Assembly: GCA_027604705.1 (NCBI GenBank)
Contig: JADHYV010000074.1
Location: 1-64,000 of the forward strand
DNA length: 64,000 nucleotides
Reading direction: 5' to 3'
From: Allomyces arbusculus
Lineage: Eukaryota > Blastocladiomycota > Blastocladiomycetes > Blastocladiales > Blastocladiaceae
Below are positions 38,907-47,543 of the stretch, piece by piece. The position numbers and the translations under genes were made by a program. The notes beneath the pieces are model-generated. The model made no database searches. It had not been told where the DNA came from and saw only the letters and a program-made list of their open reading frames with translations. Numbering within the stretch: position 1 is the stretch's first letter; each line of letters opens with the position of its first letter.

Positions 38907-39043
38907 GTTTGCTCACCAAATGAAAATCGCTGCCTCTCCGCGGCCCATCAAACCACCAATTTTTGGGAAACTATCTACATAGGAGTAGCACCGCACCGTC
39001 GAATGCGACTGACGGGACGGCACCGGGGCGTCGCGATGGATCG

Positions 39044-40679
39044 CTACGTCGGCTTGGGCGCAGCCAGCGGCGTCAAGTTCGTCGTGGGCCCGACCGGTCT
39101 CGTCCTTGTGGTCGTCAAACTCGCCGCGCGACTTGCCGTGGCCGCTTTCGGCGTCGCAACCCCCTTGGGCGTAAACGAGAACGGCGTCATGACAGACCCA
39201 GCCGTGCGCACGCTCCAGCCCTCTACACACCGTCGACCAAGCCATGGTCAGCGCACCGTGATCGGCAGCGAAAACACACGGAACCCAAACGCGGCGATCT
39301 TGCAACGTACCCGCAGGCCGTTTCCTGACCGCACCGGCCCCACTATAACTCGCGCGCAGCATCGGATCGCCACCTGTCTTGGCCGCCCGCGCTGCTGCCG
39401 CAACCACCCGGCTCGACCCGGCACTCCTACTCCTCGGCGTGCTTCCCGCGGCACTCGCACTCCCCGGGGTCCATCGCGGCGTGCCCGTCGCTCCACTTGC
39501 GCGCGAATTCCCCCGCTTCCGTGCGCGATCACTAAGTGCGATCCCCAACGCATCGCGCTTGGGCGTATCCGGCACGTGGTACCGTCCTGGTACTCGGTCG
39601 GTCACTGTGGTCGACGTGGAAACAACCGACTCGTTGTCGTCGCGCACGGCCATGGGGGTGGCCTCAATCGCGCCCCACGTCAGGTCTGGCGGGATGTCGG
39701 CGGTCGCGCCGTGCGGGACGGGGGTCATGGAGACGAGGGAGTAGAGGGTGGATGGGATCGCGGCCGCGGAAGGTGGGATGGTGGAGGTGGAGGAGCCGGC
39801 GGCAGACGCGGCTTGCGTCAGTTGCGCTAGTGGTGATGGGCCGTGGAACCGGGTCGCGGCGTGGTTGGTCTGCGCGTCGCCGCCCGCGGTCTTGCGGCGA
39901 TTGATGAGCGCGGCAGTGGTGCTCTCGGATGGCGGGAACATGAGCTGGTTGTGTACCTGGGTTGTGAATGTGAGAAAGGTCAGTTTCAGGGGCCCATGAG
40001 TGGAGGTCGCAGTGGCGGGTGATGACGGGCGTACCGTGTACTCCCAGGTCGGCACGACGGCCCTGCGCTCGTCCTTGTTGGGCAGCAACCGGTCGAGCTG
40101 GTCCTCACGCGGATCCGGCCGCGGCGCGTCGGCCATCGTTGCGAGCGCCGTCGACGATGACACGGGAACGAGAGCCATTTTGTTCCCGTCTTGCCGCGGC
40201 GTGTCCGTAATCATACGCGACCCAGCACCACCCGCCCCCACAGCACTCGATGATGCTGGCGGCGCCGCTTCGAACAGCAGAGCGCGCTCATGCTTGGCGC
40301 GTTCCTCGGTATCAAACATCCACTTGAGTTTTCGGCGGACGTCCTGCCTTTCCTGCTCGAGCAAAGAATGGAACGCGGCATTGTCCTCGCTCGTGTACCG
40401 CGCGAGGAACGCGTCGAGCCGCAGCCGCGTATCAATCCCGCCGGCGTGGTGAACTGAGTCGGTATCCGCACTCGAATCGGTGACGGCAGCCGCGTCCATG
40501 GCATCGAGCCGCTGCCGCGCATGGTGGATGCGGTAGGCGTCGCGCGAGGCGAGCGCGTCGAGAAAGGCCGACTCGGCGCGGAGCCGGTCGAGGTCCGGGT
40601 AAAAGTCGCGCTGAATGATTTCCGACAGGGCCTCGATGTAGAGGTCTTCGTCGAGCGGTTGCGGGCGGCGGGCCGTCAT
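39044..40679 (-). CDS. ESS2: ESS2/DGCR14 splicing-factor homologue
   Basis: Nuclear protein of the late spliceosome. Exons 40679-40035, 39956-39311 and 39222-39044 (489 residues). Family blocks: LDEDLYIEALSEIIQRDFYP followed by DLDRLRAE, then DAFLARYTSEDNAAFHSLL, the VHNQLMFPP block right after intron 1, LTWGAIEATP, and YHVPDTPKRDALGIALSDR. The first intron is 78 nt and in frame, so an unspliced reading stays open. The second switches frame to a Ser/Thr/Pro-rich end (GSVMTPFSFTPKGVATPKAA), typical for the family's C-terminus. Start chosen at the CCACCATG context; upstream in-frame ATGs to 40844 are possible. Confidence 0.9.
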
Positions 40680-41625
40680 GGTGGATCGGTGTGCACCAGA
40701 GATGAGAAAGTGCGGGTGCAGTGCGAGTAGTCTGGCCGCCGTGTCGTGCTCGTGGCGGCGACGGTGCTGTCGTCGACGCTGTCGCGAGGTGGTGGTGGTG
40801 GTGGGTGTGGTCATGTCGTTGCTGGTGACGATGGGGTGACGCATCGGCGGAGCGCCGCCACATCATCAAAAGCGTCTGGCGCCTCGTGCGACGCCAGGCT
40901 CGCCGCTTCTCGCTTCGGTCCCCTGGTTCAGCGCCAGGCACACGTGAAGCAACCGCCCTCAGCCGTCATGCTGATCGACCGGCCGTGCAGATGACGGGTG
41001 CGCGACGCCACGCGAGAGGGTTGTGCGCAGCAGGGACGGCGATGGACACGCTCAGCTTGAGCGCTGCGCAACTCTCTTGGACAGGACGATCCCTGCCGCG
41101 CGGCCGCCCAGCCCTCCACCAAGGTTGCGCGCCTCCGTCCCATCCCCCGCACCATCCAACTCTACCCCGCGCCAGCGCACTTATTCGGAAACGGCGGCGA
41201 TCGACGTGCTCGCCGTGGCAGCACGCGCCTGTCGCCATCCCCGCGGTTCCCTGAACTGCGCGAGGCGACCCCACGCGCCGCAACCGTGCCGTCCTCGCCG
41301 TGAACGCCGCCCATCAAAATACGGGTCGCGCAACCCCGCGTCATCCGTCAGGCGAGGTATTTCTTGTCGCCTTCCCCCCGCCTCCTCCGCTCCTGCTCCT
41401 TTCAACCGGCAAAGCGCGGTCCCACACTCTCGCTCTCCCGGCGCGCGCGCTCCCTCTCCTCTCCACCTTCCCGGCCAGCGCGCCCCGTCCCTGCTCGCCT
41501 CTCTCTCGATTACGTGGCCTGCCACGCACGACCCTATCGCCGGCGTGGAGCGCGCTCGCTGTCCCTCTCTTCATTACCTGCACGCACACCCCGACCACTG
41601 AACCGCACCCGCACGCATTGCAGCC
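40680..41625. other. divergent intergenic region
   Basis: Separates the leftward ESS2 gene from the rightward RGS-flavoprotein gene. Pyrimidine-rich toward the right end; no gene or clear core promoter motif seen. Confidence 0.4.
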
Positions 41626-44600
41626 ATGCCCAACTCGTCGACGCTCTTTGCCTCTCTGCTGGGCCGTAGCAGCAGTTCGAACCAGAGCAGCAGTACCAGC
41701 AGCAGCCATGCATCGCACGCGCCCGTCACGACCGTCGCGCCCACGAACCCGCACCGCATCAGCGACACGACGACGCTCTCGACCAAGTCGTCGTCTGTAC
41801 ACGACCAGTACCCGCCGACCTCGCCGCCGCCTGTGCCAATGGTCCCGGTCCAAATCGCCCTCGTCCCAGCCGACAAGTCGACCTCCTCCGACCCACGCGC
41901 GCTTGCCGACAAGGCCGCGGCCCCGACTTCCACGACCGGCGCACGGCCCTCTGCCTCCTCCGCCCCGGTCCCACCACTGACGCTCGAAGACGTGCTCGCT
42001 TCGCCCGTTCTCGCGCGCCACTTCCAGACGCACCTGGTCCGCACGCACGCCGAAGAGAACGCCGTCTTTGTCGCGCGCGTCCGCGAGGCGCGTGCTGCGC
42101 ACACTGCCGCGGACGCACACGCCGCATTCGACCCGCGGGTCGCGCACCACGATGCGCGGACGTTGTTGGACGAGTTTCTCGCGCACACGAGCGCGCTCGA
42201 GTTGAACTTGCCGCAGGCGTTGCGCCGGCGCGTGTTGCGCGCGTTCCGTGCGCGCGACCGCGCGCTGCGAAAGCGCGACCGCGAGGCCAGGCGGTACTTG
42301 GCGGTTCGTGCGCGCGCGGCGTCGCAACTGTCCCTTCCTGCGCTGCTTGCCGTGGACCAGCAGAACATGCAGCCGATGACGGTGCCGTCGACGCCGACAA
42401 CGCCCACGTCGGTGGGCCGGTATGCGGGGAACGCGCCGGCCGCACGCGTGCTGGGGACCGTGAATGTGATGACAGTGCACCCTCCCGCATTGCCATCGAC
42501 GCCCGCGCCCGTGCCCGCATCGATGTTACCGCTTGGCACACTGATTCCGGATAACGTGGCCACGGTGCAGGCGCCGATGCCCGCGTCGTTTGACGATGCA
42601 CGGTCGGTGCGGTCCGTGAGTACCGTGGCCACGACGGCGCGGTTGACCGACTTGGACGAGTCTGGCGACGACGACGATGACGCGGTCCCGCTGCACCAGC
42701 CGCCGGTGGACGCTGTTCGCGCGGCGGAACTGGCTGAGGGCGAGGCGGCGCTCGCGTCGGCGCAGGCCTATTTCGAAATGTTTGACGAGGTTGAGGCGCA
42801 CGTGGTCGATTTGCTGGTGCCGCGGATCAAGTCGTTCCTGACGGAACTGAGCAAGACGGCCGAGTGGTTGGTTCGCGCGCCCGAACGGACGCAGAAACGC
42901 GTCGTGATTATCGGCGGCGGGTTCTGTGGGTCCCTTGTCGCGCGCCTGCTCGACCGGTTTGAGCAATTCCAAGTGTGCTTGATTGACGCGAAGCCGTATT
43001 CCGAGTACACGGCCGCGATCATTCGCATGATTCCGAACCCGATGGCCGACTCGATTACGATCCCGCACGCGTCGTATATTCGCAACGGCCAGTTTGTGCT
43101 CGGGTACGTCGATGCCGTCTACAAAGACCACGTCCTTCTGCAGTCATCGGCACCCGGCGCTGCGGCCGCAGGGACGGCGGCAGCAGCGAACGATGTGTTG
43201 GTGGGCAAGCGCATTCCGTTTGATTACTGCGTGCTCGCAACGGGGTCGTCGTACGCTTCGTCGGTTAAGGTACTTGATTTCTTGTGCCGATTTCGGTCAC
43301 TCACTTGACCAAACTGACCACTTTTGCACCAACCCAGGCGGCCAACATCTCGTCCACCTACCGCGCACGCAAGCTGCAATACGACTACGCCAAGCTCGCC
43401 AAGGCGCGCACCGTGCTCGTCATTGGCGGCGGGTCCGTCGGTGTCGAAATCGCGTCCGAAATCGCGTCCGTCTTTGGCACTCCACGCGTGCCGATCCCGC
43501 CCGAATCTACGTCCTCGACTACGCCCACCTCGTCGTCGGGCGCGCGCAGCACCTCCCCCTCCCCGTTCCGCCGCGGCTCCGCATCGACCACCGCGACCCG
43601 CGCGACTTCCCCACCCGTCGTTAAGCACCCCGTCAAGCGCATCATTCTCGTCGACGCGAACCCGCGCTTACTGAAACGTTGTCCGCCGCGGGCCTCGCAA
43701 AAAGCGCTCGCCTACATGCGCGACGTGCTCGGCATCGACGTGGTTCTTGGGGAACGCATCACGCACCACGACGCGCGCGCCGGCGTTTTTCGCGCGCGGT
43801 CCGGCCGCGAATTCCGCGCCGACGTCGTCTACCTGGCGACCGGTCCGGTCCCGCAGACGCAGTGCATGGAACCGGCGTTTGCGCACTTGTTGACGGGCCC
43901 GAACGCCGCGGTGATGCCGTCGGCGTCGACGGCGCCGCACCACGTGGATGACGCGGCGCGCGCGTCGTCGACGTCGAATTTCTTTGTCGGTGCCGGCGCG
44001 ACCGCGGCTGATGCGGCGGCGGCCGGCCATATGGTCCCGCGCCGGGTCCTGGTCAGAGCGACGCACCAGATCCCGACGCTGCCGCATATCTTTGTCGGCG
44101 GCGATTGTTGCGCGACGGCTGAAGAGAAGATGGCATTGACGGCACAGTGTGCGGCGATCACGATCGCGCGCAATATCGTGCGCTTGGACAAGGGCAAGCC
44201 GCCGATCGAGCGCGGGGCCAAGGGGACCAAACCGTTGATGCCGAACCCGGCGGTCAACCTGATCTCGATGGGGCGGCACTCGGCGCTCGCCATCATCAAC
44301 GGCGTCGTCTTTCTCGGGCCCAAGTACCTGCGTATGAAGTGGGACGAGCTGAAAGTCAAGTACTTCGAGTACCTGCAGTCGCCGTCCGATTCGGTCCCGC
44401 GCGTGTTGAAAATGATGTGGGGTAAAGGACCGACGCCGCCGCGGTCCAAGTCGTCGGCACGGACAGCAATGCTGTCGCCGTACTACGAGTCCGAGGACGC
44501 GGCGAGCGTGCATTCCGGGTCGGAGAACGCGACGCTCGCCGGTACGGTCGGTGCCGGCGCCAATCCGGTCGCGCACGACTTGAAGCGCGAGTCGAGCATG

Positions 44601-44951
44601 TCGACACTCGCGTCGGCGGCAACGCAGCAGTTCGCGGACCATCCGACCATGGTCCTGAAAATGCGCGCACGCGCCGCACAGCAGAGCCAGTATGAGGCGG
44701 AGCTGGCTGCGGCCGCCGCGGCCGAGGGGGGAGAGTGGCACGCAGGTACGCCGTTGCCACCACCGCCGATGCGCGAGGCTCCACCGGTACCGTCCGCACC
44801 CGTGCGGAAACTCGTGCCGCGGATCGCAATGGCCGGTGGCCGTGCGCTGCCGACGGGCGAGGACGTGGCCGCGCTCGAAGAGGTCCTCCGTGCGGTCGGG
44901 CTCGTCGTGCCTGACGTTGGCGGCGCGAGCAAGCTGGCCGCCAAGGAGTGA
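41626..44951 (+). CDS. RGS domain fused to FSP1/AIFM2-like FAD/NAD(P) oxidoreductase
   Basis: Exons 41626-43269 and 43338-44951 (phase-0 junction, donor GTACTT) give 1085 residues. Ser/Thr/Pro-rich N-terminus; about 118-225 an RGS-like domain (LTLEDVLASPVLARHF, HAEENAVFVARVREA, ARTLLDEFLAHTSALELN, LPQALRRRVLRAF); disordered acidic linker; helix about 375-420; then a two-dinucleotide-fold flavoprotein: VVIIGGGFCGSLVARLLDRF (FAD site, about 425), FDYCVLATGSSY, VLVIGGGSVGVEIASEIA (NAD(P) site, about 573), HIFVGGDCC and the FSP1-type end NLISMGRHSALAIINGV. A Ser/Pro insertion interrupts the second fold. Tail about 250 residues, partly coiled. RGS would accelerate G-alpha GTPase; FSP1 proteins reduce quinones. 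The combination is unusual. Confidence 0.8.
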
Positions 44952-45461: not shown

Positions 45462-46931
45462 TCACTGTTGCACGAACGTCTCCTCGTCGCTCACCTCGAC
45501 CGGTGCGAGCGGTACCATCTCGCGCGACTTGGCCGTATCGTAAATCTCGACGTGCGCGGCCAAAACGGCCGGCACATTGACACGCTTCGGGACAAAGTAC
45601 TGCCGCCACAACTGCGCCTTGCGCTTCGCCAGCTCCTCCTTGGCCTTGGCCTCCTCCTCCTTCTTTTGCTTCTCGGCCTCCTTGGCCGCCTTTTCCTGCG
45701 CCTTGCGCTCCGCATCCGACAGTTCTGGTACCGCCGGTTCCGCTGACTCGGCCGCAAACTCAGGCGTCGCGGGCGCGTCAATCTGCTGCGTCACATCGCG
45801 CAGCGCGCCGGGCACGGCAAACAGGTCAGCGACGGTCGGTGCGGGGCCGGCAGCAGCAGCCGCCGCAGCGGCGGCACTTGCCGCGGCCATTTCCGCAGCG
45901 GCCTTCTCCGCCGGGTTCTCCTTGGGTTTCGGCGCCGGCCACATTTCCTCGTACTCAGGCACGAGCACGGGTTCGTCGGCGACGCCCTCTGGGACACCGT
46001 TGTCGACGGCGGCACGGTGCACGGACCACTCGTCGATGCCGAGCGCCAAGTCGGTCGGCTCCAATTCGCGCAGAGGACCACGGCGCGCGATCGCGAGCGT
46101 CGCACGGCCCGCATCACGAAAACGTTCCCAGTCGTTGAACCACCGGTAGATGCGGAACGGCCACGTGCGCATGCCCGTCATCCAGTCGACGGGCAGGTAG
46201 GCCACGGGCGGGAGCGCCAGACGGCGTTCGCGCACAGGCGGCGGCGGGGGCGACGCGGCAAACCAGCTCGATTCGGCCGTGGTCCGTGCGCGGTGGTATT
46301 CGGCGAGTTTCGTGGCATGCTCCGCATCCCGCTCCTGCTCAATCTGCCGCAACGCCGAGTCGTATCCGATAAGCACTTCCTCGAACGGTTTCCGGCCCAC
46401 AGCCAGGTACCCATCATAGTCATGCATACGGAACTTGAACTTGACGTCGTCGGCCGCCGTCGTCAGGACGTGCGCGCGCAGGGCGTCGTCGGCGGTCCAT
46501 GCCAGATAGGCCTGTTTCTTGACGAGCGTGCCGCACGTGTGCCGCGCAATCACGCCCGGCTCAAACGCTTCGACGAGGTCGTAGTCGACGGCGGCCGCGT
46601 CGAGGACGGGCTTGATGTACTTGCGGAAGTACTCGCGCGTGGCGCGGATCGATTCATCGGGCGCAGGACGTTGTAGGAAGACGGCGACTTTGCGGACTCG
46701 CTCGCGCGGGTCTTGCGGTTGCGAGGCCAGGTACTTGGCTTCGCCCTCGAGCTCGCGCCGCACTTCGGCGGTCAGGTGCCGGTCGCGGTAGATGAGCAGC
46801 GCGTAGGTGCCGACAATGCTGCCGAAAATGACCATGCCACGCGACGGGCGTGGGATCTTAGAGATCTTGGTGGGGATGAACCGGCGCCATCCAGCGGCGG
46901 GCGCCGCGGAGCCGGCGGTTGCGTCGGCCAT
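45462..46931 (-). CDS. TIM54: mitochondrial inner-membrane translocase subunit Tim54
   Basis: Component of the TIM22 carrier translocase. Intronless, 489 residues from the ATG at 46931 (GCCATGG context; an upstream in-frame ATG at 47039 is less likely). Pro/Arg-rich N-terminus, one membrane span near residues 32-48 (MVIFGSIVGTYALLIYRDR), then the Tim54 signature: VRKVAVFLQRPAPDESIRAT, REYFRKYIKPVLDAAAVDYD, and the ALPPVAYLPVDWMTGMRTWP block followed by RIYRWFNDWE. C-terminal Lys/Glu coiled coil and QYFVPKRVNVP. Ala-rich linker at about 365-385. Confidence 0.9.
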   Translation of the reverse strand: MADATAGSAAPAAGWRRFIPTKISKIPRPSRGMVIFGSIVGTYALLIYRDRHLTAEVRRELEGEAKYLASQPQDPRERVRKVAVFLQRPAPDESIRATREYFRKYIKPVLDAAAVDYDLVEAFEPGVIARHTCGTLVKKQAYLAWTADDALRAHVLTTAADDVKFKFRMHDYDGYLAVGRKPFEEVLIGYDSALRQIEQERDAEHATKLAEYHRARTTAESSWFAASPPPPPVRERRLALPPVAYLPVDWMTGMRTWPFRIYRWFNDWERFRDAGRATLAIARRGPLRELEPTDLALGIDEWSVHRAAVDNGVPEGVADEPVLVPEYEEMWPAPKPKENPAEKAAAEMAAASAAAAAAAAAGPAPTVADLFAVPGALRDVTQQIDAPATPEFAAESAEPAVPELSDAERKAQEKAAKEAEKQKKEEEAKAKEELAKRKAQLWRQYFVPKRVNVPAVLAAHVEIYDTAKSREMVPLAPVEVSDEETFVQQ

Positions 46932-47543
46932 GGCGGGGAAGTGCAGCAAGTTGCAGGAACTTCGAGTTTGGATGAGCGAGCGAGTGGTCGTCGACTTGTC
47001 GTGACTGGCCGTGCTGGATTGGTTTGTCGACGTTGGCAAACGACTCGCATTCTGTGATCAGGTCACGTGTGAATAACCTGCGGGCGAAAGCACAACATCT
47101 GCACCTATGTTCCTTTCGCCAGCGACATCTTTCGAAGGCTCTGATCCAACACGATCCAACACGACCCAACACCAACACCAAAGAGCAAGGATGAACACAA
47201 GTGAGCTGGCACTCGCGCTGGAGTGGCGCGTGAAGCAGGAGGGACTTGGCCCCAATGATGGCGAGGAGCCGCGGCAATGGCGATGAAATGTCCAACAAAA
47301 AATTGAGGCCGATCATTTCTGCTGAGCGCGATAGCCGTGGAGAGCAGAGCCGCAACGTCGCACGGCTGTGGTTATGATGTTGGTGGCCGCAGTGTTGGCG
47401 GCGTGGCCGGGATGCTGGTTGTTCATTTGTTGCCGACGTGAACCTATGTGTAACCACCGTGCGCCACCCATGTCGCGGGTCCGGCCAGGCAAAAACAATC
47501 CACGCTCTCGGCCGTCAAGCCCGCTAGAACCAACCCAACCGTA
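46932..47543. other. divergent promoter region of TIM54 and the paraoxonase-like gene
   Basis: No gene seen. Contains a 10-base unit (GATCCAACAC) repeated about three times at 47143-47172, the last copy with one change. Confidence 0.5.

Follow-up and report, generated by a model that had tools for sequence, protein, structure and literature searches.

A gene of Allomyces arbusculus predicted to join an RGS domain to an FSP1-like flavoprotein, with counterparts in other fungi and a stramenopile

The window analysed here, a stretch of 64,000 nucleotides on one contig (C74) of the Allomyces arbusculus genome (25.9 Mb and 197 contigs searched), contains on its forward strand a gene whose product carries a regulator of G protein signaling (RGS) domain followed by a flavoprotein resembling FSP1. 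Sequence and predicted structure indicate that the two parts are fused, that the RGS domain is split, that the flavoprotein has an FSP1-like fold, and that the fusion is spread among other eukaryotes. The gene product is probably one protein of an old family, in which the RGS domain would bind active G-alpha and bring the FSP1-like flavoenzyme to G proteins at the membrane. The features of the gene, with the folds for flavin adenine dinucleotide (FAD) and nicotinamide adenine dinucleotide (phosphate) (NAD(P)) and those seen in an AlphaFold2 (AF2) model, are as follows.

41626-44951, forward strand: whole gene, ATG at 41626 and TGA at 44949-44951, 1085 amino acids, no internal stop codon
41626-43269, forward strand: exon 1, codons 1-548, N-terminal tail, split RGS domain and FAD half of the flavoprotein
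41971-42261, forward strand: first RGS helices, residues 116-212, with the PF00615 match at 120-209, predicted also by the AF2 model and its fold match
42262-42747, forward strand: insert within the RGS domain, residues 213-374 by alignment, with a disordered core at 239-355 in the AF2 model
42748-42861, forward strand: last RGS helices, residues 375-412 by profile, directly preceding the FAD fold
42862-43269, forward strand: first part of the FSP1-like FAD fold, residues 413-548, with GGGFCG at residue 430 (Pyr_redox_2 match at 425-726)
43270-43337, forward strand: intron, GT-AG, 68 nt, consistent with the protein alignment to P0001 of Blastocladiella emersonii
43338-44951, forward strand: exon 2, codons 549-1085 and the stop codon, NAD(P) fold, remaining FAD fold, FSP1-like C-terminal part and low-complexity tail
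43425-43448, forward strand: NAD(P)-binding motif GGGSVGVE, residues 578-585, aligning with the same motif of FSP1
43482-43628, forward strand: Ser/Pro/Thr-rich insert in the NAD(P) fold, residues about 597-645, not in the shorter members of the family
44247-44423, forward strand: FSP1-like C-terminal segment, residues 852-910, NLISMGRHSALAIING...

The original prediction had given the gene exactly these limits, which run from ATG to TGA, together with a single intron between the FAD and NAD folds and a fusion lying inside one exon, and all three points held. The reading frame of exon 1 is open from 41602 to 43308, across the RGS part, the linker, and the FAD fold, so that the RGS domain and the FAD fold lie in one exon. 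The splice matches the B. emersonii protein (YASSIKAANISSTY), P0001 being itself a predicted protein. Furthermore, the G+C content at third codon positions was alike along the exon (0.84 in the N-terminal tail, 0.85 in the first RGS part, 0.81 in the insert, and 0.76 in the FAD part).

The presence of an RGS domain, which had been predicted from the sequence, was supported by profile, against the sequences of solved structures, and by fold. The Pfam profile PF00615 scored 22.2 bits with exon 1, 24.7 bits in the genome search, and 25.7 bits with the first part alone, and 34.0 bits was obtained when the two halves were joined without the insert; the whole P0001 protein, an orthologue, gave 26.0 bits. 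A profile built from 11 RGS domains of the family matched solved RGS proteins with a best E value of 4.6e-12, and 4gou (Entamoeba EhRGS-RhoGEF) was among both the sequence-profile and the fold matches of the RGS part. In the fold comparison, the AF2 model of this part matched the RGS helical bundle.

The predicted end of the domain near residue 230 did not stand. The Pfam match ends at profile position 82 of 117, and the remaining helices were placed at about residues 375-412 by the profile, a position scan, the AF2 model, and the fold match, so the confinement of the domain to residues 110-230 was rejected. The AF2 model has helices at model residues 252-266 and 270-303, corresponding to protein residues 361-375 and 379-412, and the fold match extends to model residue 303. 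Over model residues 130-246 (protein residues 239-355, within the insert), the block means of the predicted local distance difference test were 25-49. When the tail was scanned, the place of the last helices was the best of 832 positions in the window protein, and the scan of P0001 likewise peaked at the expected place. The joined score was reached by 5 of 2000 exact shuffles of the tail for the window protein and by 12 of 2000 for P0001; one hand-scrambled control tail also lengthened the RGS match, to profile position 114 with 27.8 bits. Taken together, profile and model indicate that the RGS domain of the window protein is interrupted by a mostly disordered insert, which is missing from the Mucorales and Cafeteria members, and that it ends near residue 412; across the family, the distance from the end of the RGS domain to the flavoprotein is about 13-24 residues. 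Elsewhere in the genome, another RGS domain (L008, C33:194112-194501) has an apparent insert before its last helices and keeps a more classical LLDASYAKF stretch; three RGS matches within 11 kb at C3:224266-235205 may form a local cluster.

Four residues of the first RGS helices, E144, N145, L180, and N194, align with E87, N88, I114, and N128 of RGS4, L180 being a conservative replacement. Over 11 aligned rows of the family, the E87 equivalent was E in all, the N88 equivalent N in 10, the I114 equivalent I, L, or M in all, and the N128 equivalent N in all. In RGS4, changing any of these four residues lost more than 90% of the GTPase-activating protein (GAP) activity, according to a passage of PMC3434218 that cites earlier work. 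The 11 rows omit P0016 and P0017, whose models are without the first helices, and P0003 of B. britannica, which has E, N, L, and N at the four positions in a separate alignment and G at the place of RGS4 R167. The genome has 37 G-alpha matches, eleven separate places being above the cut-off on their own; therefore, candidate partners exist.

FSP1/AIFM2 is the coenzyme Q-reducing ferroptosis suppressor of animals, which passes electrons from NAD(P)H to membrane quinone. The predicted two-fold FAD/NAD(P) oxidoreductase of FSP1 type was borne out by a Pyr_redox_2 profile match (E = 1.4e-23) and by sequence comparison, in which FSP1 (human and ancestral; PDB 8wik, 9ift) came closest to the flavoprotein among solved structures. 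FSP1 was also the best fold match of the family member P0004 of Sorochytrium, at about 24% identity, the fold comparison having been made for P0004 and not for the window protein. The FSP1-type end was confirmed in part: only the start of residues 852-910 aligned to 9ift, a chain of the FSP1 tetrapod ancestor, and a second stretch was weak (10.5 bits). Under the general Rossmann rule, an Asp that closes the second strand of an NAD fold goes with a preference for NADH; NADH may be favoured here, since Asp654 ends that strand.

The original prediction had suggested looking for the same pair of domains in Blastocladiomycota and chytrid proteomes; the pair was found in other fungi and in Cafeteria, and the pairing is widespread. 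Three protein searches gave at least 1 and at least 11 matches at E ≤ 1e-3 and at least 78 at E ≤ 1e-12; these counts are lower bounds, as the 7993 or 7997 candidates with the most shared words were scored in each search. At least nine database proteins from eight species have both domains in the same order with the RGS domain above the Pfam cut-off: P0001 of B. emersonii, P0002 and P0004 of Sorochytrium milnesiophthora, P0005 of Radiomyces spectabilis, P0006 of Cafeteria roenbergensis, P0012 of Fennellomyces sp., P0013 of Rhizopus azygosporus (a cluster of 10), P0014 of Mucor circinelloides (a cluster of 14), and P0015 of Benjaminiella poitrasii. The taxonomy of four species comprised Blastocladiomycota (two), Mucorales, and Stramenopiles. 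The remaining matches of the 11- and 78-match searches had no precomputed RGS domain. The RGS domain of P0003 scored 16.5 bits with Pfam, below the cut-off, and 59.2 bits with the family profile. Members of the family are labelled in the databases as hypothetical, uncharacterized, or RGS domain-containing proteins.

The A. arbusculus genome itself holds a paralogue, an RGS and FSP1-like gene at C36:97454-99178 on the reverse strand (L021), whose RGS domain has a shorter loop and scores 34.0 bits uninterrupted; at least two introns were judged from matches on separate frames. In Allomyces macrogynus, P0016 (AMAG_20413) is identical to the window protein at 131 of 136 positions over the FAD part. 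An internal block of the flavoprotein is apparently missing from its model, which retains the last RGS helices; they score 25.4 bits with a profile in which the window protein, nearly identical to it, is one of the rows. Because these helices are still present, the public model looks truncated and not like a separate gene.

In a tree of 32 flavoprotein parts, from which the long-branch P0010 and P0011 were dropped and in which Parasitella was counted as a fusion, a branch (98/98) separated 12 fusions, Parasitella, and P0007-P0009 from the unfused relatives P0018-P0028. The best tree needs two changes, and holding the 13 fusions together was not rejected (approximately unbiased test, p-AU 0.19); in an earlier tree of 34 rows, where the truncated Parasitella model was treated as lacking the fusion, three changes were obtained. 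P0007-P0009 are unnamed proteins with unclassified N-terminal regions before the same kind of flavoprotein. In all three, a likeness to RGS is suggestive by eye, and residues 446-513 of P0007 matched the family RGS profile (E = 0.0013 among 85 proteins), but the probability by profile comparison was 13% for P0007 and only 0.4% for P0008 and P0009; these regions are possibly decayed RGS domains. P0010 combines an erythromycin-esterase domain (PF05139, E = 6e-28) with a flavoprotein belonging to the same superfamily.

Fusions of RGS or RGS homology (RH) domains to effectors are known from Rho guanine nucleotide exchange factors (RGS-RhoGEFs) and G protein-coupled receptor kinases (GRKs). By analogy, the RGS domain is predicted to bind G-alpha loaded with guanosine triphosphate (GTP) and would draw the flavoenzyme to membrane-bound G proteins in their active state, where, as FSP1 does, the enzyme may pass electrons from NAD(P)H, perhaps preferentially NADH judging from Asp654, to membrane quinone. 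Binding may also speed GTP hydrolysis, as the RGS4 GAP positions are kept. On this analogy, the most likely role of the RGS domain is to recruit the flavoenzyme to GTP-bound G-alpha, and it may act as a GAP as well. The original prediction had offered, as possibilities, a link of G-alpha deactivation with the NAD(P)H/quinone state or a placing of the flavoprotein at the membrane, and both are conjectural.

Several results weigh against this reading. With the full window protein, PF00615 scored 20.5 bits (E = 6.5e-4), below the curated cut-off of 23.9. The split of the domain was less clear elsewhere: for P0002 and P0004 of Sorochytrium, the position scan did not peak where the last helices were expected, and in P0003, with the boundaries chosen, 1344 of 2000 shuffled tails reached the score, and the scan peak was weak, the best place being 266, which contains the last helices, with one of two head boundaries and 254 with the other. 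The P0016 model begins inside the linker, without the first RGS helices. The Gly2 that serves myristoylation in FSP1 is absent from the window protein, which starts MPNS, so that its placement at the membrane is conjectural; by the same residue, the flavoprotein is classed as FSP1-like and not as FSP1. P0006 of Cafeteria starts MGCMTS and P0009 starts MGCGAS, which we take to be myristoylation-like, and these starts are consistent with some members, at least, being membrane proteins. Lastly, the R167 equivalent was never Arg or Lys in the 11 rows (E, E, D, D, E, E, A, L, S, T, A), the window protein having Ser. R167, in helix 8, is a G-alpha contact of RGS4 that is common but not required by the fold; with its replacement, GAP activity may be weak or lost. 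Since the four GAP positions are kept and the R167 equivalent is never basic, the G-alpha face is part kept and part changed.

The same residues bear on what the RGS domain might do otherwise. The flavoprotein could be mainly a sensor, the state of NAD(P)H, FAD, or quinone switching the GAP activity of the RGS domain. In the members aligned, the RGS domain ends close before the FAD fold, so that changes in the flavoprotein might be transmitted to the final helix of the domain, and the positions critical for GAP activity in RGS4 in the cited passage of PMC3434218 are kept; however, the R167 equivalent is lost in all 11 rows and the RGS domain of the window protein is interrupted by the insert, and we regard a sensor of this kind as unlikely. 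Loss of the R167 equivalent would instead suit an RGS-like bundle that no longer binds G-alpha and serves the flavoenzyme only as a scaffold or for dimerisation, as would the mere 16.5 bits of B. britannica and P0007-P0009, which belong to the same flavoprotein clade and carry RGS-like remnants or none. Yet a scaffold would not need the E87 and N128 equivalents in 11 of 11 rows and the N88 equivalent in 10 of 11, in fungi and stramenopile alike, and a mere scaffold seems to us quite improbable.

That two genes were fused by prediction error is highly improbable. AMAG_20413 begins inside the linker and the Parasitella model P0017 begins in the last RGS helix, as separate genes might; however, AMAG_20413 keeps the last RGS helices, and a gene-model join, which had already been discounted in the original prediction, is rejected by the single open exon, by the nine proteins, from eight species, whose domains follow one another in the same way, and by the paralogue. 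On the reverse strand, the gene is flanked by matches to Es2 (38913-40862, E = 2.1e-43) and Tim54 (45462-47057, E = 9e-23), neither of which points to a functional cluster.

Kinases, RhoGEFs, sorting nexins, and receptors are known to carry RGS domains, and searches of open-licence PubMed Central papers listed none that describes a redox enzyme as the partner. The family resembles FSP1/AIFM2 in its two-fold FAD/NAD(P) oxidoreductase and similar C-terminal segment, and differs from it by the added N-terminal RGS domain and long inserts and, in the window protein, by the missing N-terminal Gly. Type II NADH dehydrogenases and sulfide:quinone reductases ranked below FSP1 in the fold list of P0004 and were absent from its 11 PDB sequence matches (E ≤ 1e-6). 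Like RGS-RhoGEFs (e.g., EhRGS-RhoGEF, 4gou) and GRKs, the family has an RGS fold ahead of a catalytic part, whereas the partner is a quinone-type flavoprotein and not an exchange factor or a kinase. Unlike the canonical RGS4, RGS5, and RGS16, the window protein and P0001 have a long insert, and the R167 equivalent is replaced throughout the 11 rows.

The RGS domain is a known kind of module; the flavoprotein as its partner is new, and the conservation is unusually deep. A bolder and, in our view, doubtful extension is that the family forms an ancient class of G-protein effectors, in which activated G-alpha would directly control an FSP1-like quinone reductase, or be switched off by redox state, so that signals from G protein-coupled receptors would set the membrane pool of antioxidant quinone in some protists as well as in zoosporic and mucoralean fungi. 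In that case, the fusion would be older than the split between fungi and stramenopiles or have moved between them. Because the fusion is kept in distant eukaryotes, a functional link of G-protein signaling with FSP1-type redox chemistry is suggested, and, with the pairing shared by early-diverging fungi and a distant marine protist, this link looks like an old one.
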